Of a stretch of 20,095 nt of DNA, positions 1-20,095 are shown one piece after another. Location of the stretch: positions 1 through 20,095 of the IMG/VR virus record IMGVR_UViG_3300021964_006196; one strand, given 5' to 3'. The translations under genes were made by a program, and so were the position numbers. Origin of the DNA: a virus. How positions within the stretch are numbered: position 1 is the first letter of the stretch; each line of letters opens with the position of its first letter. Below the pieces are notes generated by a model that was not told the origin of the DNA, did no database searches, and saw only the letters and a program-made list of their open reading frames with translations.

Positions 1-746
1 TTGACAACAGTGATAACTGGTGGGATTCATTTGAAAAACTATTACCATTCTTTAGACGTGTAGAGTTTGCGGGTGGCGAACCGTTAATGGATCCGTATCA
101 TTACAAGATACTAGATAAACTTGCACAGTATGGCGACCAAATAGAGTTGAAATATGCTACAAACGGTACTACGCTAGGTATAAAAGGCGGACGCACTATA
201 CACGACTATTGGCCTAAGTTTAAAAGCATTGCTGTAAACGTAAGCATAGACGGTATACACGATGTCTACGAATACATTAGAGGCAACGGCAAGTTTAGCG
301 AAATAGAAGAAAACATCAAAGTGTTTAAAGAGTTTCCTAATGTAAGCAGAGTAGTTGGTGCATTTACTGTACAAGCAAATAACATTATGCAGATTGACAA
401 AGTTATTGATTACTTTATTAATGAGTTAGGTATTGTGTTTTACTCGCATCGTGTAAACTATCCAATGTCGCTTTCTGCACAAGTACTGCCTCCAGAACTA
501 AAGAAGCAGGTTGTAGAACGTTTAGAACAAATGAAAACAGAAGTTTTAGAATATCCTCTAGTACAACAACATAAACTATTAGAGCAAGTTACACTACAAC
601 AGATACAAGACAATATCAACTTCTTAGAAGCAAAGTGTATGTACGAAACACATTGGAATGACTGCGTAGAGTTTAACAAGCGTTTAGATGCAACTCGCGG
701 ACAAGATTTCCTTGCTACTAATCCGGAGTTTGCTGATTATGTTTAA
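1..746 (+). CDS. Radical SAM protein, 5'-truncated by window edge (group A)
   Basis: The reading frame is open from base 3 to the TAA at 744-746 and begins outside the window. An ATG at 87 lies downstream of the core motif and is not the start. The visible part begins just before a GGEP motif (within VEFAGGEPLMDP), the SAM-amino-group-binding strand of radical SAM enzymes. It continues with TNGT and SIDGI..VYEYIRG, both typical of the core barrel. The CxxxCxxC iron-sulfur motif must lie upstream of base 1. The C-terminal tail (LDATRG, then NPEFADYV) matches the tails of the proteins at 4691-5803 and 7786-9198, so I place it in group A, whose other members carry an N-terminal auxiliary cysteine set. 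Its last 8 bases overlap the next gene (ATGTTTAA). The substrate is unknown. Confidence 0.9.
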   Translation, partial: DNSDNWWDSFEKLLPFFRRVEFAGGEPLMDPYHYKILDKLAQYGDQIELKYATNGTTLGIKGGRTIHDYWPKFKSIAVNVSIDGIHDVYEYIRGNGKFSEIEENIKVFKEFPNVSRVVGAFTVQANNIMQIDKVIDYFINELGIVFYSHRVNYPMSLSAQVLPPELKKQVVERLEQMKTEVLEYPLVQQHKLLEQVTLQQIQDNINFLEAKCMYETHWNDCVEFNKRLDATRGQDFLATNPEFADYV

Positions 747-1548
747 TCTAATATTAACAAACGGTAATGAAGATGTTAGCATACCTTTCGTAGTAAGAGA
801 TACTGCTATTGCTAACAAGTGGTTTGAAGAACTGTGTCAACATTATGACTTGTTTGAAACAGATAGATTTACTAACTGGGGTACACATAATCTAATACCA
901 GAACTTAATGAGTGTATTACTAGAATAAATCAACACGGAGTTTACATTGATAGATATATTAGCAGTGCAAGTACTGATATTCAAGGTGATCTAAACTACC
1001 TACACAAGTTCTTTGAAGACCTACGAGGTGATGTTAATACAGGCACAGAATGGTTTAACAATGCTCCTAAAGATATACAAGAGTCTGTTGAACGTTTCAA
1101 CATATTAATACACAAACTAGAAGCAGAACTAAGGACAAAGAATCATCCTACAGTAGTTGTTACATTTAAAAATCGACCAATAGTTTATCTTACAAACGAA
1201 GATATGAAATATTTTACATTTCGTTGGACACACGGTACAGTTTACATCAACTATTGCCAGGTAGGAAAAACAGTATTAGATGTTTTTAAAGATAAAGATA
1301 GCATTGCCGAAGGTGTACGGCCGCAAGAGTATTACAGTGCAGACTTTATGGTTAAGTTTGGACCTACTATACCTTACTGGCAATACATATTAAGAAAGAT
1401 ATACATAAACTTTTGGCTTACACGTCAAAAGTTTGATTTTAAACATAATAACTTAGGAATGATACCCGTTGCAGACTTGCAACATAAAGTAGATATGTCA
1501 TTTTTAAAAACGTTTAATAAAGTTAAGGGTGTAGAATGTATAAAGTAG
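739..1548 (+). CDS. Protein of unknown function between radical SAM genes
   Basis: This 269-residue protein is not recognised. I chose the ATG at 739, which overlaps the preceding stop as ATGTTTAA with GGAG at 725-728 ahead of it. An in-frame ATG at 688 would add 17 residues lying wholly inside the previous gene. The protein is soluble-looking, with no signal peptide or membrane segment. The N-terminal half looks helical (HKFFEDLRGDV, FNILIHKLEAEL). The C-terminal half looks strand-rich, with TVVVTFKNRPIVYL followed by YCQVGKTVLDVFKDKDS and YYSADFMVKFG. It contains only three cysteines and no iron-sulfur pattern. It sits between radical SAM genes on both sides with translational overlaps (8 bases before, 13 after). 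It could therefore be a substrate, scaffold or partner of those enzymes. That is inference from position only. Confidence 0.88.
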   Translation: MFNLILTNGNEDVSIPFVVRDTAIANKWFEELCQHYDLFETDRFTNWGTHNLIPELNECITRINQHGVYIDRYISSASTDIQGDLNYLHKFFEDLRGDVNTGTEWFNNAPKDIQESVERFNILIHKLEAELRTKNHPTVVVTFKNRPIVYLTNEDMKYFTFRWTHGTVYINYCQVGKTVLDVFKDKDSIAEGVRPQEYYSADFMVKFGPTIPYWQYILRKIYINFWLTRQKFDFKHNNLGMIPVADLQHKVDMSFLKTFNKVKGVECIK

Positions 1549-2444
1549 AAAGTCGTTGGGATCATCAAGACAGTATACACGTTGAATGGAATATAGGTAA
1601 ACGCTGTAATCTAGACTGTACATATTGTCCTGCAGAAATACACGATAACTTTAGCCCACACACCGAAGTTAAAGTTATGACAGACGCTATTGATGCACTT
1701 GCAGAAATAGGTAAACCTATACGATTAAGTCTAACAGGCGGAGAACCTTGTGTACATCCCCATATTATAGACATAGTAGATCATGCTGTTCAGCGTTTAG
1801 ACTGGGTTAACATTACAACTAACGGAACACTACCACATAAACTGTACGGCAGACTACCAGTTAATCATTATGTGTTTAGTTTACATGTAGAAGATGACGA
1901 CAACTGGGAACGTTGTTTGAACAATGTACTATACTGGACGCAACTAAACGAAATGGAAAGAGGAATACCGTTTCAAGTTAATCTAATGGCACATCATGAA
2001 CATATGGATAGAGTAAAACGCTGTGCTATCTTGTTTGACGGTCATAATATTCCATTTGTAGTAAGGCGTATACGTTGGACAGAAAAGCACGATTGGTTTG
2101 ACGACATGCGTTATCAACCTAAAGACTTACAATGGATACTAGATCAAAAGTCTACAGCCAAGCCAAACTGTGTAGTAGACGATGACGAACTAGTACATGC
2201 TAATGATATTATTAAAGAACAACGAAATCAGTTTGAAGGATGGTCGTGTGCTGCTGGAATAGAAAGTTTAATGATAAACTGGGACGGTGAAGTACATCGA
2301 GCTACATGCAGAGTAGGTGGGAGCTTGGGTAACATATACAAAGGAGACTTTGAACCTCCAGAAGATTGGGTTACTTGCACACGCAAATGGTGTACTTGTG
2401 CTGCTGACATTCCCTTAACAAAGGTTGCAGATGCTACAGACTAG
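1536..2444 (+). CDS. Radical SAM enzyme with C-terminal auxiliary cysteines (group B)
   Basis: A complete 302-residue radical SAM protein. The 4Fe-4S motif is C24-x3-C28-x2-C31 (CNLDCTYC) and GGEP is at 68-71; ITTNGT follows. After the barrel comes an auxiliary-cluster region: C238 (in GWSCAAG), C258, C281, C286 and C288, spaced C-x19-C-x22-C-x4-C-x-C. This resembles SPASM/twitch domains, which bind extra iron-sulfur clusters in peptide- and sugar-modifying radical SAM enzymes. The residues after the core cysteines (AEIHDNFSPH) resemble those in the proteins at 2431-3492 and 5796-6830. The ATG at 1536 overlaps the previous gene by 13 bases, with AAGGGTG just upstream as a possible ribosome binding site. 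The substrate cannot be assigned. Confidence 0.93.
   Translation: MYKVESRWDHQDSIHVEWNIGKRCNLDCTYCPAEIHDNFSPHTEVKVMTDAIDALAEIGKPIRLSLTGGEPCVHPHIIDIVDHAVQRLDWVNITTNGTLPHKLYGRLPVNHYVFSLHVEDDDNWERCLNNVLYWTQLNEMERGIPFQVNLMAHHEHMDRVKRCAILFDGHNIPFVVRRIRWTEKHDWFDDMRYQPKDLQWILDQKSTAKPNCVVDDDELVHANDIIKEQRNQFEGWSCAAGIESLMINWDGEVHRATCRVGGSLGNIYKGDFEPPEDWVTCTRKWCTCAADIPLTKVADATD
2420..2424 (+). promoter_or_regulatory. Ribosome binding site deciding the start at 2431
   Basis: AAAGG lies 6 bases before the ATG at 2431, inside the 3' end of the preceding gene. From the alternative TTG at 2425 there would be no spacer at all, so this site favours the ATG. Confidence 0.6.
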
Positions 2445-3492
2445 TGCTATAAATCTAACAGGTCCTGAACGCTTAATGGTTACATGGGACACAGGACGCA
2501 GATGCAACTTTGATTGTAGTTACTGCGAAATAAGTCGTCATGATAACATAAGTTCTCCTCACAGTTATGAAGAACTGTTGCGTACATTTGAGTTTGTAAA
2601 AGAGTATACCAGCATATACACAGATCTAGTTAACATAAACTTTACAGGCGGCGAACCTACAGTTAATCCTGCATTTTGGCAACTAGCAGAACACATTAAC
2701 AATACAGAAACACGTTTTAGATTAAGTTTAACAACTAACGGTGCTTGGCATCCTAAGAACACTGACCGTATAGCAGAACTATTTGAAGGTGTAACTGTAA
2801 GTTATCACACAGAGGGTCATGCTAAACTAAAACAACAAACGCTGGACAACATCAAACTGTTACATGCTAAAGGTCTGTGGTTACAAGTCAATGTAATGCT
2901 GCACACAGACAACTGGGCAGAAGGTGTACAAGTTTGTGAAGAACTAAAAGAGTTAGGTATTAAACACAATCCTCGTCCTATAGGTGACGGCAACATAGAA
3001 CGCAAAGGTTGGTTTCCTGACACAGACGGAAGTTGGCGTAGGACAACACACGATTATACAGACGAACAGCAAGATTGGTTTTACAGTTATACCAATGTAG
3101 CAAAACCCAGTGAAGGGACCAAAGCAGGAACAGAACTAGGACGTAAATGCTGTGGTGGTCGTTGTTTACAAGGCAAAGTAAATGACAAATGGCAACCAGT
3201 TGAGCTAGTTGATACACATTTTAAAGGGTGGTTTTGCAGCGTCAACAAGTACTTCTTACACATCGATCAACACACGGGCAATGTGTATCACCATCAGACT
3301 TGTCAAGCACTACACGACGGTCTTAGAGGCCCTGTAGGCACCCTTAAAGACACTGATAGTATACTTGCTTATGCAAACGCAAACAAAGATCGTACAATAG
3401 TATGTCCTAATGATCGCTGTGGTTGTGGTATGTGTGTGCCTAAGGCTAAAGAGTTATCCGACTATACAGCTATACTCGCCAAAAACATCTAA
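2431..3492 (+). CDS. Radical SAM enzyme with extended cysteine-rich C-terminus (group B)
   Basis: A 353-residue radical SAM protein. The core motif is C25-x3-C29-x2-C32 (CNFDCSYC), with GGEP at 73-76 and LTTNGA after it. The C-terminal part is rich in cysteine: a CCGGRC patch at 240-245, GWFC with C269, C291, then C325-x4-C330-x-C332-x2-C335 followed by VPKAK. This could hold one or two auxiliary clusters. The same landmarks recur in the protein at 5796-6830, so the two are clear paralogues. I prefer the ATG at 2431: AAAGG at 2420-2424 lies 6 bases before it. A TTG at 2425 would add two residues. The gene overlaps the upstream gene by 14 bases. Its 3' end overlaps the opposite-strand gene at 3454-4698 by 39 bases, tail to tail. 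Confidence 0.93.
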   Translation: MLQTSAINLTGPERLMVTWDTGRRCNFDCSYCEISRHDNISSPHSYEELLRTFEFVKEYTSIYTDLVNINFTGGEPTVNPAFWQLAEHINNTETRFRLSLTTNGAWHPKNTDRIAELFEGVTVSYHTEGHAKLKQQTLDNIKLLHAKGLWLQVNVMLHTDNWAEGVQVCEELKELGIKHNPRPIGDGNIERKGWFPDTDGSWRRTTHDYTDEQQDWFYSYTNVAKPSEGTKAGTELGRKCCGGRCLQGKVNDKWQPVELVDTHFKGWFCSVNKYFLHIDQHTGNVYHHQTCQALHDGLRGPVGTLKDTDSILAYANANKDRTIVCPNDRCGCGMCVPKAKELSDYTAILAKNI

Positions 3493-4698
3493 GAACTTTT
3501 TCTCTCTACGCTTATCATATTCTGATACAAACAAGTTAAAGTCTTGCAACTGTGTTTCTGTAGGTTGCTTATCAAACTCTGCCAGTACAAAATCAAAACG
3601 CTGAACTGTTTCTCTGTTAAAATGTTTTTTAAGTTTTTCGCGACTTGCTTCTAGTACGGGTCTCCACACTTTTGGAGCCAGTGATACATGTAAAAAGTTA
3701 GGATGTCTTACATAACTGATACTAAGTGTAACTCGGCCGCACTCTTTTTTAAGAGCAATCATATCGTCTAAGAATCTAGAAAAACTAGTAATACTTAATA
3801 CGTTGTACGCACACATTAAGTTTAATCTTAACTTAGGTAATGCAGATAATACATAGTAACAGTTTAGCAACCATTCTCGATAGTTTAATCCGTCACGAAC
3901 ATACTCTGCTTGTCCGCCATAACTTTCACCGCTAGTTGCAATCTCAACACGTTTAACACTCTTTTGTACTTTTTTAAGCAGTTCAATAAAGTTAGCAATA
4001 ATATGTTTTGGTGCACCTAGGTTGCTGTTGATTACAACTGTAAGTTTTTTATTAGGATGATCGGCAATGTAATCTAAAAGTTTTTCAGTGTGTCTACTCA
4101 GCATAGGTTCGCCACCAGTAATCCGAAGTGTATGCAGTTTGTCATACATAGTAGGCAGGTATTCCCAGAACGCTTCGATGTAAGGATTGTGTTCTCTATC
4201 TAGTATTTGTTTTTCGTGTATTTGATTATAACTGTCTGAAGTAGGGTATGCACCAAGGTTGGATATTTCGCTAGTCCACAAACTGCTAAACTGCGGACCA
4301 CAGTATGCACACTTAAAGTTGCACACGTTTGAAAAACTAACTTCAAGCATTGTAGGATCGTATCTATCAGTGGCAATAATATCTTTACGATACGGCCAAC
4401 TGTCACGCTTCTTGCTCATTAAAACACGATCACTATATTTTTCTGTTTCTTCTACACGCCAACAATAATCACATTCGCTAGGACGTTCTCCATTGAGCAT
4501 TTGATTTCTAACACTGCGTTTGTATGAGCTATTGTGCAATGCACTAGGATCTGCTTGTACTTCTTCAACAGGAACAACGTGCGGATTAGGATGATGACAA
4601 CTGTGATTCTTTCCTATGCCTAAATGCATTGTGCTGTTGGTCCACTTTGCTAAACATAGACTTTCGCCTAGTTTATTTTTTACATACCAGTTAAACAT
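3454..4698 (-). CDS. Radical SAM protein with N-terminal twitch-like cysteines (group A)
   Basis: A 414-residue protein with auxiliary cysteines before the radical SAM core. The N-terminal set is C15 (LCLAKW), C34 (HSCHHP), C76 and C79 (ECDYCW), which fits an N-terminal twitch-type iron-sulfur site. The core motif is C126-x3-C130-x2-C133 (CNFKCAYC) and GGEP is at 195-198. It is closely paralogous to the protein at 15179-16561: both have PSALHN, NPY..A.WE, LRITGGEP and a tail with EYDKRR/EHDRRR. That tail match supports the TAA at 3454 as the true end, although the last 39 bases lie opposite the 3' end of the gene at 2431-3492. The ATG at 4698 overlaps the upstream gene as ATGTTTAA and has GGAG (CTCC at 4706-4709) 7 bases before it. 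It is the last gene of the leftward run. Confidence 0.93.
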   Translation of the reverse strand: MFNWYVKNKLGESLCLAKWTNSTMHLGIGKNHSCHHPNPHVVPVEEVQADPSALHNSSYKRSVRNQMLNGERPSECDYCWRVEETEKYSDRVLMSKKRDSWPYRKDIIATDRYDPTMLEVSFSNVCNFKCAYCGPQFSSLWTSEISNLGAYPTSDSYNQIHEKQILDREHNPYIEAFWEYLPTMYDKLHTLRITGGEPMLSRHTEKLLDYIADHPNKKLTVVINSNLGAPKHIIANFIELLKKVQKSVKRVEIATSGESYGGQAEYVRDGLNYREWLLNCYYVLSALPKLRLNLMCAYNVLSITSFSRFLDDMIALKKECGRVTLSISYVRHPNFLHVSLAPKVWRPVLEASREKLKKHFNRETVQRFDFVLAEFDKQPTETQLQDFNLFVSEYDKRREKKFLDVFGEYSCIVG

Positions 4699-5803
4699 TT
4701 AGTATCTCCGCAACTATAGGAAATGTATCTTTAAAAGACTCATTTCGTATTTTGTCTATACCATTTATATAATGGTTACGTTGTTCTTCTATGTTGTCTA
4801 CATTTCTAAAAGTAGTTGTCATATATTTTTTAATCTGTGTATCTATTATATTATCCGATAAGCGATTAGTTACTTGTTCTTTCTGATAATCTGTTAACAC
4901 ACTTAAATCAAATACAAATGGATCTCTTACAAAGTTTACAAATATGTTTTTAGTAGGACACCAATCTAAAAACTGTTGACTAGATAAACAGTTAAAAATA
5001 CTAACAGTATACACAACAGATATATCTAGAAAATCATATTGCAATGCATCTATAAAGTTGTCAGCAACTTTGTTCCATTTTACTGGATGGCGCTGATAGG
5101 TAAACTCATCTTCTACACCGTCTATTGAATACATAAGCGAAACAGATTTAAACTGTTTAAAAATGTCAATCATTTTTGTTGTTAGTTTGACTGTTCCGTT
5201 AGTAATAATCCTTACTTGAACATATTCTGCTCTGCCATTATCTATTAAGTGAGATAGTAGTTCAAAGTTTTCTTTTATAATAAAAGGCTCGCCGCCGCTA
5301 ATGTATAATGTATCTAGTTGTCCTAGGCCAAGTTTTAGTTCACTCCAAACTTTGTCGTTTTTAAACCACTGTGCATTTCTTCCTTGATTTCTCAAATAAC
5401 CAAATAGTTCTTGTTCATCTGGTTCCCATAGATGGCTATTTGTACTTGCACATATTCTGCATTTCATATTGCATTTGTTGCCTAGTTTTATATCTATAAG
5501 AAAAGGATCCCAAGGCAGTGTGCTTTTTATTTTAGAAAGGTAGTTGCTATATTTTCTGTTTTCTTGTATTCTACGACTTTCAAGTCCTGCTTGTTCTTGT
5601 AGCATACACTTTCTGCATCCTTCGGGAAACTTGCCGTCTAAAAAGTCTTGTCTTACTTGTGTATACTTTTCTCCCAAGTATGCTTCTAGTATTGTTTGTT
5701 CGTTTAAGTCGCCAACAAATCCGTCATATTCGCAACAAGGTCTAATCATGCCCATTGCACCTAAATCAATCTGCGACCAAGGAACTATACAAATATTACT
5801 CAT
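4691..5803 (-). CDS. Radical SAM protein with N-terminal twitch-like cysteines (group A)
   Basis: A 370-residue protein. The N-terminal auxiliary set is C5 (ICIVPW), C23-C24 (RPCCEY), C63 and C66 (GCRKCMLQE). This is the pattern C..PW, then PCC, then P..C..C, known from twitch-domain radical SAM proteins with the twitch at the N-terminus. The core is C111-x3-C115-x2-C118 (CNMKCRIC), with GGEP at 170-173, then ITNGT and YSIDGVEDEF. The C-terminal tail (GIDKIRNESFKDTFP) is shared with the other group A proteins. The start ATG at 5803 overlaps the upstream stop by 8 bases (ATGAGTAA). I see no convincing Shine-Dalgarno sequence, so translation may depend on termination-reinitiation. The substrate is unknown. 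Confidence 0.93.
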   Translation of the reverse strand: MSNICIVPWSQIDLGAMGMIRPCCEYDGFVGDLNEQTILEAYLGEKYTQVRQDFLDGKFPEGCRKCMLQEQAGLESRRIQENRKYSNYLSKIKSTLPWDPFLIDIKLGNKCNMKCRICASTNSHLWEPDEQELFGYLRNQGRNAQWFKNDKVWSELKLGLGQLDTLYISGGEPFIIKENFELLSHLIDNGRAEYVQVRIITNGTVKLTTKMIDIFKQFKSVSLMYSIDGVEDEFTYQRHPVKWNKVADNFIDALQYDFLDISVVYTVSIFNCLSSQQFLDWCPTKNIFVNFVRDPFVFDLSVLTDYQKEQVTNRLSDNIIDTQIKKYMTTTFRNVDNIEEQRNHYINGIDKIRNESFKDTFPIVAEILNV

Positions 5804-6830
5804 ACTTTTGCATTATCCTAATATAGTCTGTTTTGTCTTTTGCTTTTGGCGCACATATGCCACACCAACATCTTGATTTTTTACAAACAATAGTATCTGT
5901 TTTTCCTACACGCTGTAATATAGAGTTAGTGTCTTTAAGATTTCCTATAGGACCCACTTCACCATCCCAGTTCATGCGACAGTCTTTGTTAGTAAAAACT
6001 TCGCCAGTAGTTTGTCTAATATACAAAAAATACTTGTCAACACTACAATGCCAACCCTTAAAACGATTGTCAACATATTTTGTACATCCTGTATTGTTAC
6101 ACATTTCTTGTCCGCCGCAGCAAGCACGACCTTGTGATGATAAATCAATGCCGCCAGTAAGTACTGCTGCTGCCATCTTTAAAGCACTTACAGATTCTTT
6201 GCCAGTTAGATATGCTGCTTGTTCTTTGTTGTATTTGAAACGCCAATCAAACCAATCATGATCTATTTGACGCTTTTCATATCTAATATTATTCATTTCA
6301 CAAAACTCTACCATGTTAACACAAGTATCCCAATGCTTAGGATGCATAATAATACTAACATGAAAGTTTTTGTTTTGCTCTTGCAAGTATAGTAGGTTTT
6401 CTCTTACTTGTATATGCTGTTTAGGTAATGCTTCTGCATGAAAGCTAACTGTAAAGTATTCTAATAAGTCTACTACTTTAGCCCATAAGCGTTTACCTAC
6501 TACTGCGTTTGTAATAGTACCTATGCTTAGGTTCCAATCTAAACCTTCTTTCTTTTGTTTTGCATACTCTAGTATTTCAAGTATATCAGGATGGAATAGA
6601 CTTTCCCCACCTAGTATGTTTAGACTTGCTTGCTTGTGCTTGCGTGACTGCATTTGTATGCTAACATAGTCTACAATAAAGTCAAGTGTTTTTAAACTAT
6701 CTTCAAGTGACGGATGAGGTATGCTGTTGTTATGACCATCGCCGCAGTAACTACAGTCAAGATTACACTTTAGAGTGCTTTCCCACTCTATGTGAAAGTA
6801 GTTAGGTTCTACTGTGTCTAAGAAATCCAT
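5796..6830 (-). CDS. Radical SAM enzyme, paralogue of 2431-3492, with GGES motif (group B)
   Basis: A 344-residue protein. The core is C22-x3-C26-x2-C29 (CNLDCSYC). The usual GGEP reads GGES (74-77), a tolerated but uncommon change. The C-terminal half repeats the landmarks of the protein at 2431-3492 in the same order: RACCGG, a further cysteine patch, RFKGWHCSVDKYFLYI, GPIGNLKDTNSIL and C316-x4-C321-x-C323-x2-C326 followed by APKAK. The two genes lie on opposite strands near the convergent junction at 3.5 kb, so they are diverged duplicates rather than a recent tandem copy. The start overlaps the upstream gene by 13 bases and its stop overlaps the downstream start by 8. The substrate is unknown. 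Confidence 0.93.
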   Translation of the reverse strand: MDFLDTVEPNYFHIEWESTLKCNLDCSYCGDGHNNSIPHPSLEDSLKTLDFIVDYVSIQMQSRKHKQASLNILGGESLFHPDILEILEYAKQKKEGLDWNLSIGTITNAVVGKRLWAKVVDLLEYFTVSFHAEALPKQHIQVRENLLYLQEQNKNFHVSIIMHPKHWDTCVNMVEFCEMNNIRYEKRQIDHDWFDWRFKYNKEQAAYLTGKESVSALKMAAAVLTGGIDLSSQGRACCGGQEMCNNTGCTKYVDNRFKGWHCSVDKYFLYIRQTTGEVFTNKDCRMNWDGEVGPIGNLKDTNSILQRVGKTDTIVCKKSRCWCGICAPKAKDKTDYIRIMQKYE

Positions 6831-7789
6831 TTGTTACATACCACTTCTTCATTACATCCACAAATACGTTTTGTGCAAGTTACAGGCTCTATTCTAGGAC
6901 TAAAGTTTTGTATAAAGTTTAAATCGTAGATATTATAATGTGTGTCAGCACCGTACAGCACTTGTTGACAGTTTCCAGTTATTCTACCATCGCCGAATAT
7001 TTTGAGTAAGTCAACACCTAAGTTGCACTGCCAGCCTTCGAAATAGTTTAAGTTGTTTCTTGTTATCCAACTATCGTTGTCAACAGTAATAACTTCACCG
7101 TCTTGTTGTGTTATTTCTACTCGTGTTTGTTCTTTGTTAACTGTGCTGTGATACCAGTCCATGTCAGGATACTGTTTAATAGTATCATCAAAATATTTGA
7201 GTTGTTCGTCTGTGTATCTGTGCATGCCGCCAAAGTGTACAATCTTTGCAATGATCGGCCATTTGTGCTTTGCATTATTTTTTAAGTATTCTACGTTGCT
7301 CACACACTTGTCAAAGTGATAAGGATCTATTAGTACATCTGCATTTACAAATACGCCTCGTTCATATAATAAGTCGCAAACTTTTATGATCTTGTCTAGT
7401 TTTGCATACTCGTGATGTACGCTAATACCTACATTGTCAAAGTTGTGTGCTTCACGTTTCCACCAACTTAATGCTTTACTACCATTTGAACTCATTTCTA
7501 TTAGTGTACCAAACTCTTGTTTTAAGTATGTACACAGTTCAGGCAAGCCTTTCCACAGTGTAGGTTCACCGCCAACAAAGAAAATGTTGCTTTTAGGCTT
7601 ACCGTTGTTACGATAATGTTCTAATAGGTGTCCTAGATTCTGTTTGACTATGTCAATATCAGGCCAAGGCTGATCGCCTTCGTTACTGCCCGGAAAACAG
7701 TAGTGGCATTTATGATTGCAGAGATTGCCTAGCATATATTCTATGCGTAGCGTATCACTAGGCTGATTATTCTTTACTCTTACAATCAT
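6818..7789 (-). CDS. Radical SAM enzyme with C-terminal auxiliary cysteines (group C)
   Basis: A 323-residue protein. The core is C24-x3-C28-x2-C31 (CNHKCHYC), followed by FPG; GGEP is at 73-76 and SSNGS follows. Auxiliary cysteines are at the C-terminal end: GWQC, a second cysteine 19 residues on, then C305-x4-C310-x-C312 and C318. The LG..CN..C.YC.P signature and the strand-plus-FEGWQC layout resemble the protein at 11647-12660, so I group these two. The start is ATG at 7789 in a 4-base ATGA overlap with the upstream stop, a classic translational coupling arrangement. The only strong purine run upstream (GGAG) is about 14 bases away. Confidence 0.93.
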   Translation of the reverse strand: MIVRVKNNQPSDTLRIEYMLGNLCNHKCHYCFPGSNEGDQPWPDIDIVKQNLGHLLEHYRNNGKPKSNIFFVGGEPTLWKGLPELCTYLKQEFGTLIEMSSNGSKALSWWKREAHNFDNVGISVHHEYAKLDKIIKVCDLLYERGVFVNADVLIDPYHFDKCVSNVEYLKNNAKHKWPIIAKIVHFGGMHRYTDEQLKYFDDTIKQYPDMDWYHSTVNKEQTRVEITQQDGEVITVDNDSWITRNNLNYFEGWQCNLGVDLLKIFGDGRITGNCQQVLYGADTHYNIYDLNFIQNFSPRIEPVTCTKRICGCNEEVVCNKWIS

Positions 7790-9198: not shown

Positions 9199-11062
9199 TG
9201 TTTTGCTCCTTAGCCCAGTTGCGTTCTTGACACCAAAAGCACTCTCCGCACTCTGGCACATACTTTCCTTGCATATAGTTTTTGTAGTCTAAATGTTCAA
9301 AGTCACCTTCGCAACTACGTGTAGTATGAAACAAGTCCATAATGTCGTTGTCAATGTATTGTTTTACAATCCAATCTTTTTCAACATACAAAAAAGGATG
9401 ACATGCTAATGTTCCTTCATGCTTTTTAACTAGTTCGTTAGCATCAGGATATTCTACATCTCTGTCAGGCATTCCTTTACTAATACTAGTATCACTAGGG
9501 TTTTTAGTTTTTGCGCCAAACCAGGCATCAAACTTATGCTCGTTAGCAAGCCATTCGGCATGAGATCTAACAATGATTTGATCTCCGCTTCTAATGTTAC
9601 CATACTCGTCTATAATGTGGGCGCCTTTATCACTGTACTCTAGTTCTGGTGGTACAAAGTTTTCATGGCGTACAAAGTTTATATTTGGGAAACGTGTTCT
9701 TAGCCAACTGAACACTCTAAAGCTATCATAACGTTGCCACGGTCTAGTTTTCCATAATCTAATATGACTAATCATATGGAAAGTAACTTGTTGATCAGGT
9801 TCTACAAAACTTGCAAGTAGATATGCTAACAATGCACTATCTGCGCCACCGCTTAAACTAATACCTACACTAGTCCACTCTTTATCAAAAGGAATAAACA
9901 AGGTTCCTGTTTTCTTAAACTTAGTCATATCAAACTCACCATTTAAGTAAGCATGATTAACTTCATTAATAAGTCCTTTTGGTCTTACTTCAATCTGCTC
10001 TTCGATTTGATCTGTAGGCTTTGAAAGATTGTTTTCTTTTAATACTCCGCATGTTCTAGCACACTTAATAAGTTTATGTTCACCTTCCCAATACTTGTGC
10101 CATACGTTTTGCCATATATCAGAGTTTATAATATCCTTTACTGATGTGTTTAACGCACAAGTGTCACCCAGTTCTGCAACTAGTTCTTTATGCTGGTCTA
10201 ACATTTCTTCCATAATGTGTTGTGTATTAGGCTGTTCATATGTTAAGTTATACGGAACTGCTCCTAAAAAGCAACACGGATAAACATTACGGTAAGCATC
10301 AATGTAAATCTCTTTATTACGCAATACTGCGCACTCGATCTTAGATTCTTTTACAATAGTTTTATAGTTGTCTATTACTTCTTGCGTTACATAACTTAGT
10401 TTTGACCCAGTTGGTGCTTCTAGATAATCTACAGTATTTCCGTCTTTGTCGTATACTGGAAACTTGTCATCTGCAATAAATCTTGCACTATTTTTGTGAT
10501 GGAATAAACTAAATCCCATACGCTCTGCTGTTTCTTTTGCTTTGTCAACTTGATGTTCATTATGTTTAAAACGTATAAACGCCCATTCTGCTGTGCCGCC
10601 AGCATCAATAAATGCTTGTGCATTAGCAATAATCTTGTTATAGTCAGTACCGATGCGATATTTGCTGTGTGTATCTTCTAAACCGTCAATAGCAAAAATA
10701 ACAGCATGTCTGTTAGGCATTACTCTGGCAAGATCTCTCCACCAATCTAAACTTCTAGCACTTGCGTTTGTATGTACACGAATATAAACATCAGGATTTA
10801 CTCCTGCTGCATATTCTATCATGTCTTTTAGGTCTTGATTAACAATAGGATCTCCATAGTTTCCGCAAAAGTAAAAACTTTTTACTTGCATTAGCACTTC
10901 TGGAGACATTATTTGTTTAAACTCGTCTAGTGTCCAATCTTTGCCATTAATAAGAGGGTTGTCTTGTCCGCCGTGATAGTTGCGGCTGCACATTGGACAA
11001 CTTGCTTGACATCTATTAGATATTTCTAAATGTATTTGTCGTAGCTCACTAAACTTAAACAT
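9188..11062 (-). CDS. Radical SAM / PP-loop ATPase fusion protein with QueC-like cysteine cluster
   Basis: A 624-residue two-domain protein. Residues 1-340 are a radical SAM enzyme: C18-x3-C22-x2-C25 (CQASCPMC), GNYGDP at 67-72 in place of GGEP, then FAIDGLEDTH. SPASM-like cysteines follow at C244, C263-C264, C334 and C338. Residues from about 390 to 624 form a PP-loop ATPase domain with SLSGGADSALLAYLL (P-loop SGGADS at 404-409). It ends with C584 and C605-x2-C608-x2-C611 (ECGECFWCQER). QueC, the PP-loop enzyme that makes preQ0, has a similar C-terminal zinc-binding cysteine set, so this half may be QueC-like. The radical SAM half is not a QueE. Some PP-loop enzymes adenylate a carbonyl group to introduce nitrogen or sulfur; the fusion suggests coupled steps on one substrate. 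GGAAG precedes the ATG at 11062, which overlaps the upstream stop as ATGTTTAA. Confidence 0.93.
   Translation of the reverse strand: MFKFSELRQIHLEISNRCQASCPMCSRNYHGGQDNPLINGKDWTLDEFKQIMSPEVLMQVKSFYFCGNYGDPIVNQDLKDMIEYAAGVNPDVYIRVHTNASARSLDWWRDLARVMPNRHAVIFAIDGLEDTHSKYRIGTDYNKIIANAQAFIDAGGTAEWAFIRFKHNEHQVDKAKETAERMGFSLFHHKNSARFIADDKFPVYDKDGNTVDYLEAPTGSKLSYVTQEVIDNYKTIVKESKIECAVLRNKEIYIDAYRNVYPCCFLGAVPYNLTYEQPNTQHIMEEMLDQHKELVAELGDTCALNTSVKDIINSDIWQNVWHKYWEGEHKLIKCARTCGVLKENNLSKPTDQIEEQIEVRPKGLINEVNHAYLNGEFDMTKFKKTGTLFIPFDKEWTSVGISLSGGADSALLAYLLASFVEPDQQVTFHMISHIRLWKTRPWQRYDSFRVFSWLRTRFPNINFVRHENFVPPELEYSDKGAHIIDEYGNIRSGDQIIVRSHAEWLANEHKFDAWFGAKTKNPSDTSISKGMPDRDVEYPDANELVKKHEGTLACHPFLYVEKDWIVKQYIDNDIMDLFHTTRSCEGDFEHLDYKNYMQGKYVPECGECFWCQERNWAKEQNNVE
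9206..9211 (-). promoter_or_regulatory. Strong Shine-Dalgarno site for the gene starting at 9198
   Basis: On the minus strand this reads AAGGAG, 7 bases before the ATG at 9198 and inside the 3' end of the fusion gene. It decides the start in favour of 9198 over the in-frame ATG at 9261, and it shows that the translation machinery here recognises canonical Shine-Dalgarno sequences. Confidence 0.75.
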
Positions 11063-11657
11063 GTTTTCTTCCTATAATCATATAACGTTGATACTTAGGT
11101 AACTCCATTACACCTTTCCACATAGGTGTAATATTGCTCATTTTAACAAAATCATCTAAGTCAACTGAACATCGTATGTGTTCTTCTAGCTCAAAGTAGT
11201 TATTACTCTGCAATACTATGAGAGAGCTGTCTGGCTGATTGTTTAACCATTGCTCGTATTGTTCTTGTGTAACGTGTTCACAACTTGTATTGATAACAAT
11301 GTCAGCAGCTTCCATATGATAGACCATATCCTCTGTTACTGCACGAAACATACCCCTCATTTCGTATGCTTTATTCATTGTATTTGCAGTTTCTTCGCAT
11401 ACAGGGTCAATATCTACACTTGTGATTCGTCCAACATTAATGCGGCTATTAAAAATAAGACTAGCAAGAACTCCATTCCACCCTCCATATATAACAATGT
11501 TATTACGATATTGACTAACATAGTTTTCAAGTGTTTCTATTAGCCATTGCTTGCTGTGTATTTGTCCTTTCCAGAAACTTTCAAGTGTACGATATCGATC
11601 TTCGCTATTGCGAATAGCGTCCATCCAGTATAATACGTCTTCTAGTTCAACTTTCAT
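11055..11657 (-). CDS. Methyltransferase-like Rossmann-fold protein
   Basis: A 200-residue protein from the ATG at 11657, chosen because AAAGG (CCTTT at 11664-11668) lies 6 bases ahead of it. A longer start at 11687 would add ten residues inside the previous gene. Features fit a class I SAM-dependent methyltransferase fold: a glycine-containing motif I (IVIYGGWNGVLAS, residues 54-66), an acidic motif II strand end (TSVDIDP, 79-85), and a motif IV-like strand DIVINTSCEHV (119-129). The first loop, GGWNG, departs from the usual GxGxG, so SAM binding is probable rather than certain. There are no membrane segments or obvious target-recognition domain. It lies between two radical SAM genes with 11-base and 8-base overlaps, so it probably acts in the same pathway. 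The methyl acceptor is unknown. Confidence 0.85.
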   Translation of the reverse strand: MKVELEDVLYWMDAIRNSEDRYRTLESFWKGQIHSKQWLIETLENYVSQYRNNIVIYGGWNGVLASLIFNSRINVGRITSVDIDPVCEETANTMNKAYEMRGMFRAVTEDMVYHMEAADIVINTSCEHVTQEQYEQWLNNQPDSSLIVLQSNNYFELEEHIRCSVDLDDFVKMSNITPMWKGVMELPKYQRYMIIGRKHV

Positions 11658-12660
11658 TTTTAGCCTTTGGTATTTTTGAATCTGCACTACTTACACAACT
11701 AGGTGTAATGCATGTTTTTGGTTTATCAAACAGTTTAAAACCTTCTGTAACAGTACCTAGTGGTTCATCGTGACAACTATAACTACGTTTTACTTGATTT
11801 TCACGTATAACTATTCCTTGATAGCCTGCGTTACAAGTCCAGCCTTTGAACTTGTTAAATCCAAAAGCATTTAACCGCTCTGCTTGATCTAAGTTATATT
11901 TGTTTCCGCTACGGTCTTGTAGTTCAACTTGATATAACGGTATCAACTCTTTGTATTCGTCTGGGATTCTTTGTGGGAATCCTGTTTGCATGATTGAGAT
12001 TTGCTCATCTGTGTAGCCTCCAACCACGCTTGTGGCGGTATCATTGGACTGTGGTTTGAGAGTAACATTGATACCTCTGGCGGCAAATCGTTCAAGGCGT
12101 TCGTAAAGCTCTTGAAACCTTTCTGGAACCATAACTTGATTGATTGTAACAAAGGTTCCTCCTTTCATTAACTGTAAACACTTGTCTCCAAACTCTTGCT
12201 CGTTTGCAAACTCGTCATGAAAACTTGCGGTTACACTTCTACGTTGCAAAGTACTTGTTGCATCTAACCACTTTGCCCACCATTTGCTGCCAGGACTTAG
12301 ATTTGTGGTCATGTGTATACTTTGATATTCGGGTGCTGTATCACTACAGTAATACTCTATAAGTTCCCCAAAGTATTTATAGGCTGTAGGTTCGCCACCA
12401 CTAAAACTAAAATGAAAGTTTTTAAACCCATTAAGCTGTGCTTGGTACTTTATATTGTCTATTGTTTGTTTATATACATCTAAAGTTTGATGATCAGGCT
12501 TATCTGATCTAGCATACGGCCAACAATAGCTACAGTTGTAGTTACAAAATCTACCTAATATCCAAGAGACTGTAAAGAGATCTGTGTTAAGCAAGGTCTT
12601 TTGACCAAACTTAACAATATCATCGAACGGTATTTCTTGAAAGTTAGCTTCATTTGTCAT
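11647..12660 (-). CDS. Radical SAM enzyme with incomplete auxiliary cysteine set (group C)
   Basis: A 337-residue protein. The core is C39-x3-C43-x2-C46 (CNYNCSYC), followed by WPYA; GGEP is at 88-91 and TTNLSPGSKWW follows. The C-terminal region has GWTC, a cysteine 20 residues on, then C317-x4-C322. Where relatives continue with C-x-C, this one has C322-V-S324, so at least one auxiliary ligand is missing. It still ends in IPKAK, like the VPKAK/APKAK of the group B pair. The ATG at 12660 has no Shine-Dalgarno sequence. It lies directly at the predicted transcription start of a consensus-like promoter, so the message may be leaderless. It is the first of eight tightly overlapping genes running left to 3454. 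The substrate is unknown. Confidence 0.92.
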   Translation of the reverse strand: MTNEANFQEIPFDDIVKFGQKTLLNTDLFTVSWILGRFCNYNCSYCWPYARSDKPDHQTLDVYKQTIDNIKYQAQLNGFKNFHFSFSGGEPTAYKYFGELIEYYCSDTAPEYQSIHMTTNLSPGSKWWAKWLDATSTLQRRSVTASFHDEFANEQEFGDKCLQLMKGGTFVTINQVMVPERFQELYERLERFAARGINVTLKPQSNDTATSVVGGYTDEQISIMQTGFPQRIPDEYKELIPLYQVELQDRSGNKYNLDQAERLNAFGFNKFKGWTCNAGYQGIVIRENQVKRSYSCHDEPLGTVTEGFKLFDKPKTCITPSCVSSADSKIPKAKNES

Positions 12661-12667
12661 TTGTTTT

Positions 12668-12696
12668 ATTATAGCACACTCTTTTAGAAATGTCTA
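12668..12696 (-). promoter_or_regulatory. Sigma70-type extended -10 promoter for the leftward radical SAM operon
   Basis: On the minus strand, TAGACA (12696-12691; 5 of 6 matches to TTGACA) is followed by a 17-base spacer and TATAAT (12673-12668), with TG one base before the -10 (TGcTATAAT). The -35 lies just inside the 3' end of the dehydrogenase gene. Usual spacing puts the first transcribed base at about 12661, one base before the ATG at 12660. The near-consensus elements make this the clearest promoter in the window. Host RNA polymerase recognition is assumed, not shown. Confidence 0.7.
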
Positions 12697-13913
12697 GTAT
12701 TTCCGTAATGTATTACTGTACTTGCATTACTCGAAAACTTACGCCAGGGGTCTACAACTACACTACCTGCTGGTATTACACAGTATAGCATGTCTGTATT
12801 ATCACCTTCTTCTTGCATATACTTGTAAGTTGTACTAGCACTATGCGCCATAAGCATTACACATGGTTCCGATGGCTCATTGTTATCACCTGTTAATGGA
12901 TCTATATAAGTAGGTGCAAAGCCGTGTTTTTTGCAATAATGTCCTACTAAGATACTATAACTTCCATCTTCATACGGAACGCCAGGTTTATACGCCTTTC
13001 CGTGAATGTAAATGGGCATGTTCTTTTCATTGGCAATGTCTACTAGTTTAAGTGCAAGATTTTCTGCCTGTATTTCACGAGCATTCATAATGCTGTCAAA
13101 CAAGTCGTAACCTAAACCCAGTTCGTGTGCCATATAACGCAATGCAATATTATCACGAGGATGACATGCACCACCGTCGCCCATACCTGCTGTCATATAT
13201 TGTGGACCCATAATACGCATTGTACTTTGTGCTAGTGCATCTGTTACAACGTCAACATTAATGTTACCCTGTTTTTCAGCAACATCTTGTATCATATTAA
13301 CTAAGCCAATCTTAGCACTGATAAATGTATTGTAGAAAACTTTAATACATTCACACTCGTCCCAAGTACCAACTATATAACGAGGATCGTTTTCCATTAC
13401 AGTCTTATAAAAATCTACAAGCTGTTTAGCATCACCTGTTTCAGTACCATCTTCTGTACCAATCATTACCATTTCAGGATTAACCATATCCCATGCTACA
13501 CTGCCCATAGCAATCAAGTAAGGGTTGTAAACAAAACGTGTGTTAGTTACTAGCGGTACAAAGTGACTTCTAGTAGTACCTGGTAATACTGTACTAATAA
13601 GGACTAGTAACTGATCTTTGTTCATGTACTTGTTTGCTTCTTCTAGTACATGTTGAACAATAGCGTATCCAAAGTCTTTAGGCTCTAAATGTGCAGTGGG
13701 TGCTCTACCATCATAATCCGGATCGTGAGGAGTAGGCACTGCAACAAATACAATATCTCTATCTTCTACGCATCCTTTTATAGTAGGAAACATTGTAACA
13801 TCATTACTTGTTCTTTTAGCAATATCATATGCTGTTACGTTATGTCCTTTTTGTGCTACTGCTTCAGCACAAGGCATTCCGAGTTTTCCAACGCCAATAA
13901 AGCCTATGTTCAT
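12684..13913 (-). CDS. UDP-glucose/nucleotide-sugar 6-dehydrogenase family protein
   Basis: A 409-residue NAD-dependent nucleotide-sugar dehydrogenase relative. Family members oxidise UDP-sugars twice, from alcohol to acid (for example UDP-glucose to UDP-glucuronate). Visible landmarks: Rossmann GxGxxG (G7, G9, G12), ISTVLPG with the conserved Thr108, CIKVFYNTFISAK with Lys191 and Asn195, the catalytic Cys250 in GGACHPRD (247-254) with Asp254, and GKAYKPG in the C-terminal domain. Length is normal. Oddly, the family's NPEFL.EG segment reads NPYLIAMG (130-137), so both usual glutamates are gone (Tyr132, Met136). The Arg of the usual D.RESS segment is also absent (PYEDGSYS). This suggests an altered substrate or reaction. 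AGGA lies ahead of the ATG at 13913. A 23-base gap with a promoter separates it from the radical SAM run. Confidence 0.92.
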   Translation of the reverse strand: MNIGFIGVGKLGMPCAEAVAQKGHNVTAYDIAKRTSNDVTMFPTIKGCVEDRDIVFVAVPTPHDPDYDGRAPTAHLEPKDFGYAIVQHVLEEANKYMNKDQLLVLISTVLPGTTRSHFVPLVTNTRFVYNPYLIAMGSVAWDMVNPEMVMIGTEDGTETGDAKQLVDFYKTVMENDPRYIVGTWDECECIKVFYNTFISAKIGLVNMIQDVAEKQGNINVDVVTDALAQSTMRIMGPQYMTAGMGDGGACHPRDNIALRYMAHELGLGYDLFDSIMNAREIQAENLALKLVDIANEKNMPIYIHGKAYKPGVPYEDGSYSILVGHYCKKHGFAPTYIDPLTGDNNEPSEPCVMLMAHSASTTYKYMQEEGDNTDMLYCVIPAGSVVVDPWRKFSSNASTVIHYGNTRHF

Positions 13914-13963
13914 CTTTTATCCTCATAAATATCTTAGTTAACTGAGTATTTAATGGAAATAAA
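13914..13963. promoter_or_regulatory. Divergent intergenic region with imperfect palindrome
   Basis: This 50-base gap is the larger of the window's two non-coding stretches and separates two divergent genes. An imperfect palindrome, CTTAGTTAACTGAG (13933-13946; perfect core AGTTAACT, one T-G mismatch pair), sits near the middle and could be an operator. On the plus strand CATAAATA (13924-13931) is one base off the T4-type late promoter TATAAATA, at a workable distance from the ATG at 13964. I see no convincing sigma70 promoter for the dehydrogenase. Assignments are tentative. Confidence 0.45.
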
Positions 13964-15196
13964 ATGGAACACTTACAGGACTGGCTTAAAGATGATGATT
14001 ACTTTAGAGTTTGCCCCTCTGAAATAGGATGTTTTCATCACTACAAAAAACATCTACCGCATTTTAAAAAAGGGGTATACGACAGGATGCCCGTAATGTT
14101 CGCACACTACTCGTATAACAAAAGGTGGCTTCCTACTAGTGATGTTTTTGCAACTGTAAAACCTGAGTTTCTTGCAAAGATTAGAGCTAAAAAATGTATG
14201 TTTGTATTAGACGGAACACACGAAGGCTGGGCGCCAGAAGAACAGTCAGTAGCGATGGCACTTTATTTTAGTGCAATACGTCATAACATTGATCCTGCAA
14301 GTGTTGTATTTTTAAGTGGTAATCTTAGAGAAAAAGCAAACTTTAGATTATTCTACAATGGGCGCAACGACAGAGTTAACCCTATTAGTATTATTGAGAT
14401 TATGCACTGGGATACTTTTCAAAAAGTAATGATGACTGAAGGAAAGAAAAAGTTTGGACGCTATAACAACCTAGTACAAAACTATCAAGGTAAGTTCTAT
14501 CTAAATCTCAGTAGAAGAAAGAGATTTTGGCGTAGTTATTGTACATACAAACTACACGAAGCTGACATTGCAAAATATGGACTATTAAGTCACGATAAAC
14601 TAGATCAACGAGAATACAAAAACAACAAGTTTTATACTGCTGAAATGCAGGAGTTCATGTCAAAAAACACTCCACTTACAGTTGACACTGATGACTTTGA
14701 AACTAACTGGGCATACGATCTCGGAGTAGGTCTACATAGTCAAGTACTGTTTAACTTAACTTCAGAAACACTACAAAGTGACTGGAACGAAACAAGTTTG
14801 TTTTATAGTGAAAAAACATTTAAGCCTATTGTACAAAAAACTCCAGTTATTATTTGGGGGCAAACAGGGCAAAACTATAATCTACAAAGATTAGGTTACA
14901 AGTTATACACTGATTGGTTTGACTACGACTTTGACTTTGAACCAGATATCATCAAACGATGGAATAAGCTAGAAAAAGAACTAGTGCGTGTATGTACTAT
15001 GCTGTCTAAAATGACACGTACACAGCAAATAGATTGGTCAATACAAAATACAGAAGTGTTAGATTATAATCACCATCGTGCAGACTATAATGATTATACT
15101 ATTAGCGAGTTTTTAAGATTTGTTGATCACTGTCAACTAGTGCTAGCAGGAAAGCAGCCCTCAGATGAGGACTACGTTTCAAAAAATGTTTCTTAA
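13964..15196 (+). CDS. Glycosyltransferase-like protein (GT-B / GT10-like C-terminal motif)
   Basis: A 410-residue cytoplasmic protein. The best clue is the C-terminal block SEKTFKPI (282-289), TPVIIWG (293-299) and then LQRLGYKLYTDWFDYDFD. An E-K-x-x-K/A-P-x-x-x-x-x-P-V/F-I-x-x-G arrangement of this kind is found in fucosyltransferase-like GT-B proteins and in many marine phage proteins annotated as glycosyltransferases. The preceding FNLTSETL fits the nucleotide-sugar site. The N-terminal 250 residues show FVLDGTHEGW and KFYLNLSRRKRFWR but no family I can name. It is the only plus-strand gene in the right half: divergent from the nucleotide-sugar dehydrogenase and overlapping tail to tail by 18 bases with the radical SAM gene at 15179. 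It may consume the dehydrogenase product, which is inference. The acceptor is unknown. Confidence 0.85.
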   Translation: MEHLQDWLKDDDYFRVCPSEIGCFHHYKKHLPHFKKGVYDRMPVMFAHYSYNKRWLPTSDVFATVKPEFLAKIRAKKCMFVLDGTHEGWAPEEQSVAMALYFSAIRHNIDPASVVFLSGNLREKANFRLFYNGRNDRVNPISIIEIMHWDTFQKVMMTEGKKKFGRYNNLVQNYQGKFYLNLSRRKRFWRSYCTYKLHEADIAKYGLLSHDKLDQREYKNNKFYTAEMQEFMSKNTPLTVDTDDFETNWAYDLGVGLHSQVLFNLTSETLQSDWNETSLFYSEKTFKPIVQKTPVIIWGQTGQNYNLQRLGYKLYTDWFDYDFDFEPDIIKRWNKLEKELVRVCTMLSKMTRTQQIDWSIQNTEVLDYNHHRADYNDYTISEFLRFVDHCQLVLAGKQPSDEDYVSKNVS

Positions 15197-16561
15197 CTCA
15201 GGAAATGTTTCGTCAAAGTTTGTATTTCTTCTGCGGTCATGTTCTTTAAACCAAGCAACAAAATCTTTACGTCCTATTTCTAAAGTTTTATCATCGTAAG
15301 TTGTAGTACGCATATAGTCAACTACACGTCTAAACTTTTCATATTCTAGTTTAGTAAACTTATTAACATCGTAGTCATCTAGATTAGTCTTAATAAACTC
15401 TAAATGACTTTCCATATAACTCATAAAACTTTTAGGAAGTATATTCATATCATACTGAATAGGTTCTTTTAAATACGGAGTATCAAATCGTATTCTTCTA
15501 GTACCAGTTTGATATTTTTCACGCCATTCTAAAAACTTTTCTAATAAAGACTGGAACGTTGTAACACTTAGAACATTAAATGTAACCATAAAAGTAATAG
15601 GCTGATCTGTTTCGGTCATCCAAGTGTCAAAGTTCTTTTCCCATACAGTTAGGTCTAGATTAGTTCTAATATATTCTGCAGGCTTTCCCCAAGTGTCTAA
15701 ACTTGTAAAGAGTTTAAACTTTTTAATCTTATTTTCTTTTACTAGCTTGTTTACTTTATCCGCTAAACGCTTTACAAGTACATTTTTAACAGCAAGATTA
15801 CTGTTAATGTTTATTTCGAGATTTGGCTTAGGATTTGCATCAAGATCTTCTAGCAGTCTCCAAGTACTTTGTTGCAGCAACGGTTCGCCACCAGTAATGC
15901 GTAATATGTTAAGTGTCTTACTAACTTCCGGCCACCATTCCCACCAGGCTTTTACATAAGGATTTTCTTCTTCCTTTTTGTATATACGCATACGACGAGT
16001 ATCAAAAGCGTGATTTTGTACCATATCATACGGGCCAAAGTCTTCTATTTCTTTGAAATAGCTACTACTTGCTTTAGGATGACAATATCCGCATCGCAAG
16101 TTACATTCGTTACCAAACGATACTTCAATGTATTCAGGATTAATATCATACAACCAATCATTTGCAACAATCTCGTTCAATCGATCTTTTGTATAAATGC
16201 CTGCATTACGTTCGTGTCTATCGCTTACATAGTCTTTGCCCATACACTCAATGTTCCAGCAATATTTGCATCCGTCTGGTTGCTTGCCTTCTAGCATTTC
16301 TTTTCGTTGTGCTTTCTTTTCCATTGTATTATGTAATGCACTAGGATTGTTTTCTAGTTCATGCAACGGAATCATGTGAGGGGCAGGATGATAACAACTG
16401 TGCGTTTCGCCTGTTTGTAAATAGATAGTAGTATGATGCCATTTAGCTAAACAAAATGTTGGAGAAACTGTGTCTGTAATCTGCTTTACTTCGGTCATAC
16501 GATCAATAGGATCTTTAACAATCTTTAATCGACGTGCAAGTTTTTTAACTAGTTTATTCAA
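15179..16561 (-). CDS. Radical SAM protein with N-terminal twitch-like cysteines (group A), TTG start
   Basis: The frame gives 460 residues from a TTG at 16561, or 439 from the ATG at 16498. I favour the TTG because AAGGA lies 10 bases before it and it forms an 8-base overlap (TTGAATAA) like other junctions here. The ATG has no good ribosome binding site. The extra N-terminus is lysine/arginine-rich (LVKKLARRLKIVK). The auxiliary set is C37 (FCLAKW), C56 (HSCYHP), C98 and C101 (GCKYCW). The core is C153-x3-C157-x2-C160 (CNLRCGYC), with GGEP at 224-227. It is the close paralogue of the protein at 3454-4698, but lies about 10 kb away in the glycosyltransferase run, so radical SAM chemistry and glycosyltransfer may be linked. 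Its 3' end overlaps the opposite-strand gene by 18 bases. Confidence 0.9.
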   Translation of the reverse strand: MNKLVKKLARRLKIVKDPIDRMTEVKQITDTVSPTFCLAKWHHTTIYLQTGETHSCYHPAPHMIPLHELENNPSALHNTMEKKAQRKEMLEGKQPDGCKYCWNIECMGKDYVSDRHERNAGIYTKDRLNEIVANDWLYDINPEYIEVSFGNECNLRCGYCHPKASSSYFKEIEDFGPYDMVQNHAFDTRRMRIYKKEEENPYVKAWWEWWPEVSKTLNILRITGGEPLLQQSTWRLLEDLDANPKPNLEININSNLAVKNVLVKRLADKVNKLVKENKIKKFKLFTSLDTWGKPAEYIRTNLDLTVWEKNFDTWMTETDQPITFMVTFNVLSVTTFQSLLEKFLEWREKYQTGTRRIRFDTPYLKEPIQYDMNILPKSFMSYMESHLEFIKTNLDDYDVNKFTKLEYEKFRRVVDYMRTTTYDDKTLEIGRKDFVAWFKEHDRRRNTNFDETFPELRNIF

Positions 16562-18804: not shown

Positions 18805-19315
18805 ACAACACTCCTACATTTGTAACATGAGCCGGAACAAAAATATCTAACTGCTTGTTGGGTGTTATCGGATAAACGCTAATATTAGGTTGACACACAA
18901 CAACATCGTATAAAATATGAAAACAGTCTTTTTCACAAACATACAGAACCGAACTGCTATCAAAGTCTCCGTGTAGTGTCAACGAACCAGTAGTTTGATT
19001 AATACTAACCATATTTGGCATTTGTGTTTGAGGAACTTTATAAAACGAATGACTAGTTGTAATATCTACAGCAGAATCTGCTTTTTGCAATACATATTTG
19101 TCACCTAGTTGTACAGCTTTATACTTATTTTTCATCAACTGACCGCTGAGAAACTTTTCGGCTAAATCAACGTCGATTTCAATAGTATTTTCAGGTGGTT
19201 CTCCTGCGCCAGTAAACACAGATGTTAAGCGTCCGTCTTCAGCAAATGATACATAAAACTTTTGTTGCTGTATTACTTGCTGGTGTCTCATTATTTCTGC
19301 TAGTCTATCAATCAT
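18797..19315 (-). CDS. Small protein of unknown function
   Basis: A 172-residue protein that I do not recognise. The first 20 residues look like a polar helix (MIDRLAEIMRHQQVIQQQ). A strand-rich body follows: FYVSFAEDGRLTSVF, IEIDVDLAEKFLSGQ and YKAVQLGDKYVLQK. The last 70 residues appear beta-rich (GSLTLHGDF, LYVCEKDCFHILYDVVVC). The small mixed fold with short beta strands could suit a virion or adaptor protein, but nothing in the sequence shows this. It is coupled by 8-base overlaps to a GT-A glycosyltransferase upstream (ATGATTGA) and the two-module GT-like protein downstream, so it belongs to the same transcription unit. It could be an acceptor or a chaperone for the glycosyltransferases; this is a guess from position. 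Confidence 0.82.
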   Translation of the reverse strand: MIDRLAEIMRHQQVIQQQKFYVSFAEDGRLTSVFTGAGEPPENTIEIDVDLAEKFLSGQLMKNKYKAVQLGDKYVLQKADSAVDITTSHSFYKVPQTQMPNMVSINQTTGSLTLHGDFDSSSVLYVCEKDCFHILYDVVVCQPNISVYPITPNKQLDIFVPAHVTNVGVLYE

Positions 19316-20087: not shown

Positions 20088-20095
20088 TTTCAAAC
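20077..20095 (-). CDS. Probable last codons of an upstream gene running off the window
   Basis: On the minus strand from 20094 one frame reads Phe-Glu-Asn-Glu-Gln-stop, ending with TAA at 20079-20077. It would overlap the ATG at 20087 by 11 bases, as is usual here. The gene at 17455-18804 ends similarly (KFENENT) across its own next start, and both starts share the bases GTTTGAAAATG. The gene beyond the edge may therefore be another member of that module family. The evidence is only five codons. Confidence 0.3.

Follow-up and report, generated by a model that had tools for sequence, protein, structure and literature searches.

What does a virus gain from carrying eleven radical SAM (rSAM) genes almost side by side? 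As Fe-S enzymes, rSAMs are demanding, and, to our knowledge, they are rarely stacked so densely; a phage lineage in which purifying selection maintains between five and eleven distinct rSAMs must profit from their joint product. The window analyzed here, the whole of an IMG/VR record of 20,095 bp, comprises nineteen tightly packed frames, including eleven intact, almost consecutive rSAM frames, and represents part of the genome of a large aquatic bacteriophage of the T4-like type. The viral origin is borne out by the conservation of the gene set in viral relatives. The 159.6-kb relative G001 encodes a T4-type major head protein, tail sheath, terminase and UvsX, and its capsid protein is approximately 70% identical to those of jumbo T4-like phages. 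No close relative among phage isolates was detected for the three window proteins that were searched, the results being distant partial matches or none.

The radical SAM genes of the array

An earlier sequence-only reading of this DNA had recognized eleven intact rSAM frames, ten with a CxxxCxxC core and the eleventh truncated but retaining GGEP, and our analysis of the sequence confirms this count. The exception, g01 (positions 3-746, plus strand), has its 5' part cut by the window edge; the full-length version in G001 is 422 aa long and contains CNLKCRMC. A GGEP or GGES motif is present in 10 of the 11 frames, including the truncated g01, the equivalent position in g10 being occupied by CGNYGDP. 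All eleven proteins match Pfam PF04055 (E ≤ 5.2e-6), and nine exceed its gathering score of 29.5, with g10 (27.4 bits) and g15 (27.2 bits) just below. There are no internal stops among the window frames.

The previously proposed division into four sequence groups is roughly right: blastp comparison yields five N-twitch proteins with N-terminal auxiliary cysteines, a group with C-terminal auxiliary cysteines (g03, g08 and g12) that is accompanied by a more closely related pair (g04 and g07), and g10, which stands alone. As the earlier reading noted, the auxiliary cysteines lie before the core in some of the proteins and after it in others. The five N-twitch proteins are the only ones in the window to pass the 170-bit cut-off of NF033640 (N-terminal-twitch rSAM), a family name without an assigned reaction, whereas the other six rSAMs fail it. 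They are g01 (187 bits); g05 (3454-4698, minus strand; 290 bits), which is nearest to g15; g06 (4691-5803, minus; 300 bits), which forms a long branch in the tree and for which no close ortholog was found among the relatives; g09 (7786-9261, minus; 395 bits); and g15 (15179-16561, minus; 314 bits). The g09 protein is strongly conserved, with 45-95% identity in alignment A2, and its translation may in fact begin at a later ATG. The proteins with C-terminal cysteines are g03 (1536-2444, plus; PF04055, 4.8e-12), g04 (2425-3492, plus; 9.5e-14), g07 (5796-6830, minus; 2.6e-7), g08 (6818-7789, minus; 6e-12) and g12 (11647-12660, minus; 1e-12). The PDB matches of the window rSAMs are generic core matches. 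A defense function was considered and rejected, the similarity to viperin being confined to the generic core, with a best window score of 48.1 bits against NF038283 (cut-off 180 bits) and at most 50.7 bits against the PADLOC pVip model.

The g10 frame (9188-11062, minus; PF04055, 4.4e-6) joins an rSAM (g10N) to a QueC-like PP-loop domain (g10C), the latter with a weak match to the QueC-like phrog_1550. This fusion, noted in the sequence-only reading, is indeed present in the window, but the two halves are separate genes everywhere else we compared: of 266 g10N-type ORFs, the window's is the only one in which they are joined, so that the fusion may be peculiar to the window virus or may be an indel or assembly effect. 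The PP-loop protein resembles QueC and other PP-loop enzymes in its SGGxDS signature and QueC-type Cys motif but differs from them in scoring below the Pfam QueC gathering threshold (16.2 vs 22); a PDB profile search with this protein retrieved no clear relative.

A conserved core and variable accessory members

Twenty large viral contigs contain 6-15 rSAM matches apiece. Gene co-occurrence was assessed in 19 dereplicated viral loci anchored on g09 and in 21 anchored on g10N; because similarity to g09 or g10N was the criterion for picking these loci, the counts, which use full-length g01, describe phages that have these genes and not the whole lineage. Five rSAMs (g01, g03, g09, g10N and g12) and g11 (11055-11687, minus) are found together in all 19 g09-anchored loci, and g08, a β-hydroxylase-like gene (F12) and the QueC-like PP-loop gene are each present in 18. 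Among the g10N-anchored loci, g11 occurs in 18, g03 and g12 in 17, and g01 and g09 in 16. The AlphaFold model of g11 (pLDDT 84) matches the class I methyltransferase fold (Foldseek E 9e-10), and F12 matches a β-hydroxylase of the caprazamycin, that is, nucleoside-antibiotic, type (2.4e-19). The co-inherited set is therefore composed of five rSAM types, a methyltransferase-fold protein, a β-hydroxylase-like protein and a QueC-like PP-loop protein, and further rSAMs that differ between phages are added to it. The order of the core genes is similar across divergent contigs. The accessory members (g02, g04-g07 and g13-g15) vary in presence among loci; of the 19 g09-anchored loci, g04 was detected in seven, g05 and g07 in four each, and g13 in only five. 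The last of these genes (12684-13913, minus) encodes a UDP-glucose dehydrogenase-like protein (PF03721, PF00984; phrog_9148, 1.8e-95), and two others, g02 (688-1548, plus), of unknown fold, and g14 (13964-15196, plus), encode uncharacterized proteins without Pfam or PHROG matches.

In phylogenetic trees, g01, g04, g05, g07, g08 and g12 form one clade each, and so do g09 and g03 save for a few divergent paralogs. The rSAM types are old, distinct enzymes, and the separate ortholog clades reject recent tandem duplication as the origin of the array. The dN/dS values of the rSAMs with orthologs, estimated for the window versus two relatives with g06 left out, range from 0.05 to 0.23, which bears out the earlier suggestion that these genes are maintained by selection and, along with the lack of internal stops, rejects the possibility of decayed copies for the genes compared. 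Neither of the two outcomes that had been named as arguments against a single system, scattered single genes and decayed copies, was seen: the frames are undecayed, and the core genes co-occur across related contigs, in 19 of 19 loci, and are not scattered singly.

Genomic context of the array

In the relatives, the array is flanked by backbone genes on one side and by a block of tail-fiber genes on the other; the fiber genes are outside the window itself, and the adjacency is known from these relatives. Genes of the g15, g16 and g18/g19 types, as well as F18 and F19, adjoin the fiber genes there. In the window, g16 (16554-17474, minus) encodes a possible GT-A-like glycosyltransferase, the best Foldseek matches of its AlphaFold model (pLDDT 89) being glycosyltransferases, at weak scores (E 2.6e-4, TM ~0.32). 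It is followed by g17 (17455-18804, minus), which by sequence is a relative of g16 in family F1 with two domain copies; g18 (18797-19315, minus), a small unknown protein that evolves fast (dN/dS 0.30 vs G007); and g19 (19308-20093, minus), which matches phrog_1903, a family of unknown function (2e-9), and in view of its LDADM motif is a possible GT8-like protein. Relatives of g19 adjoin fiber genes in other phages.

The array is absent from G175, a 210-kb relative that keeps the fiber-adjacent gene set and carries a g15 copy with 64% identity; where the array would be, this genome has genes for a UDP-glucose dehydrogenase, an NDP-sugar epimerase and a 2OG oxygenase. This makes the array an accessory cassette of a fiber-adjacent locus whose theme is sugars. 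Variable islands beside tail fibers with sugar genes, which define host recognition clusters, are found in the relatives, and this location supports the previous observation that the array lies alongside nucleotide-sugar genes.

Two other features of these genomes deserve mention. In G001, a second group of genes at 112.6-122.7 kb (L171, 12630-19398 onward), whose products have Cys-rich N-termini and include rSAM-like members, adjoins another giant fiber gene; one member passes phrog_1802 (2.7e-24) and others match phrog_31457. In G176, a g13-like UDP-glucose dehydrogenase gene at 95.8-99.4 kb (L356, 821-4421) is apparently split, with an intein-like stretch and an extra ORF between the halves.

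Relatives in cellular genomes

A g10N scan of genome contigs yielded 20 loci. Two contigs from marine MAGs, G023 C3 (L242-L244) and G024 C6 (L245-L247; rSAM gene run at 13.8-34 kb), contain T4-like fiber genes along with rSAM arrays and are probably misbinned phage contigs. Other loci, including those of Bdellovibrionia, look chromosomal. The g12 gene was identified in 15 of 144 Bdellovibrionia genomes, in one case on a contig of more than 640 kb, and often has g10N and/or g09 adjacent to it; the CVSSADSK motif of g12 is invariant in alignment A4, in which the Bdellovibrionia homologs are included. In places, these relatives adjoin genes for GT2 or AT3-type SGNH proteins, and in a Bdellovibrionaceae MAG a homolog of g02 adjoins g10N. 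A link to pilin-like neighbors was dropped, being limited to two genomes and lacking Pfam support, and literature searches for the exact family name and for Bdellovibrio rSAM clusters returned nothing specific. One contig of a Bdellovibrionales MAG (G031 C275, L238-L240) combines many rSAM genes with three PP-loop genes and a NodU-type carbamoyltransferase gene.

Predicted function of the array

The joint travel of the core genes beside fiber and sugar genes points to one shared pathway. In our leading, still tentative reading, to which we assign a probability of about 0.4, the array is a single co-inherited cassette whose enzymes would tailor a nucleotide sugar or a glycan, step by step and by radical chemistry, for the virion or host surface. 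The rSAMs would act sequentially on a nucleotide-sugar-derived or glycan intermediate that the PP-loop enzyme, converting a carboxylate, the oxygenase, by hydroxylation, and the methyltransferase, by methylation, would modify further; the adjoining glycosyltransferases would then attach the product to the phage fiber or the host envelope. That the array is one multi-enzyme system, as had been proposed, is supported by the conservation of the set, the old, separate ortholog groups, the low dN/dS and the location. A surface-sugar pathway in particular is suggested by the constancy of the core (19/19 and 16-18/21 dereplicated loci), the separate clades evolving under constraint, the fiber-adjacent place with g13 inside the array, the sugar genes in the array-less G175, the glycosyltransferases nearest to the g16 model, the nucleoside-antibiotic β-hydroxylase matched by F12, and the GT2 and AT3-type SGNH neighbors in Bdellovibrionia. 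Against it stand the weak fold match of g16, the presence of g13 in only five of the 19 loci and the generic nature of the PDB matches of the rSAMs. Thus, of the three targets originally suggested, a sugar, a nucleotide or a virion protein, the evidence leans to the sugar or glycan.

Proximity to fiber genes is equally compatible with a scheme in which the rSAMs would directly alter residues of a large protein of the phage, the adjacent tail fibers being the likeliest target, through epimerization, cross-linking or methylation; RiPP maturases perform comparable modifications on peptides, and g09 has a weak profile match to the peptide maturase SkfB (E 0.0048). We nevertheless regard this scheme as unlikely. 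No RiPP-maturase model reaches its cut-off, and peptide maturation loses ground because neither a precursor gene nor an RRE was found: the PqqD/RRE domain (PF05402) is missing from 14 related contigs, and the largest intergenic gap in the window is 50 nt, which leaves no separate precursor gene in the window gaps that were searched, a distant one being possible. Production of a diffusible small molecule, for instance an inhibitor or signal that resembles a nucleoside or sugar and acts during infection, seems quite unlikely: the mixed enzyme set resembles a natural-product cluster, and the closest relatives with solved structures, for F12 and g10N, belong to pathways of nucleoside antibiotics (the Cpz10 group and BlsE, respectively), but the BlsE match spans only the generic rSAM core and no exporter or resistance gene was recognized in the window.

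A role in the modification of nucleotides or phage DNA, in which the QueC-like enzyme would be part of a deazaguanine-type pathway, is very unlikely. The QueC-type Cys motif of the PP-loop protein, a QueD-type PTPS gene in 6 of 12 related contigs and the location of QueD near the rSAM module of Campylobacter phage CP220 would fit such a role; it is disfavored because the QueE and QueD partners are missing or distant, no window rSAM reaching a QueE cut-off and the PTPS gene, where present, lying away from the array (G001 and G007, both fragments, have none). Least probable of all is a loose collection of unrelated cargo accumulated in a hypervariable region. The accessory members do come and go, and some related phages lack the array altogether, but the core is constant and similarly ordered in divergent contigs. 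Returning to the surface-sugar pathway, we consider it possible, if doubtful, that at least five successive rSAM steps produce a chemically new fiber or envelope decoration that has a smaller chromosomal counterpart in the predatory Bdellovibrionia.

Comparison with previously described phages

The sequence-only reading held that known rSAM clusters have one to three members, which is wrong for phages. The Campylobacter phages CP220 and CPt10 have been reported to encode 11 and 12 rSAM proteins (Timms et al. 2010, PMC2853527), and 12 radical SAM genes have been described in the marine T4-like genome TARA_ERS488813_N000010 (Nishimura et al. 2017, PMC5332604), so that the suggestion of an array without precedent finds no support. 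Host recognition clusters of pelagimyophages likewise include rSAM cassettes (PMC7029224). The passages on these phages in the three reports assign no reaction to the rSAMs.

Like the window virus, CP220 and CPt10 are related to T4, and in CP220 five rSAMs and two genes with NDP-sugar-transferase domains follow the baseplate genes. However, the Campylobacter phage module includes a possible glycine amidinotransferase, for which there is no corresponding Pfam match among the window proteins, and similarity to the window is limited to g10N, at about 24%. The pelagimyophage cluster is a comparable variable island with tail fibers, glycosyltransferases, UDP-glucose dehydrogenase and rSAM cassettes, but the account of it (PMC7029224) describes, in the part concerned, no conserved multi-rSAM core, and the capsid of the window relatives is closer to that of jumbo T4-like phages. 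What is new here is the defined core, the old ortholog groups, the exchange at a fiber-adjacent sugar locus and the Bdellovibrionia relatives. Given the fixed core and its bacterial relatives, what had been an observation that T4-like phages carry many radical SAM genes becomes a defined, expressible and testable pathway.

The likeness to TARA_ERS488813_N000010 is one of description: that genome belongs to a marine phage of the T4-like type and has a dozen rSAM genes plus a gene for an Fe-S carrier, the rSAM count being given in the relevant passage among Fe-S genes, without a core set, locus or function. Some of the contigs analyzed here share the carrier: A-type Fe-S carrier genes (PF01521) were detected in 5 of 14 related contigs (G004, G005, G006, G175 and G176), and their products could help in loading many Fe-S enzymes.
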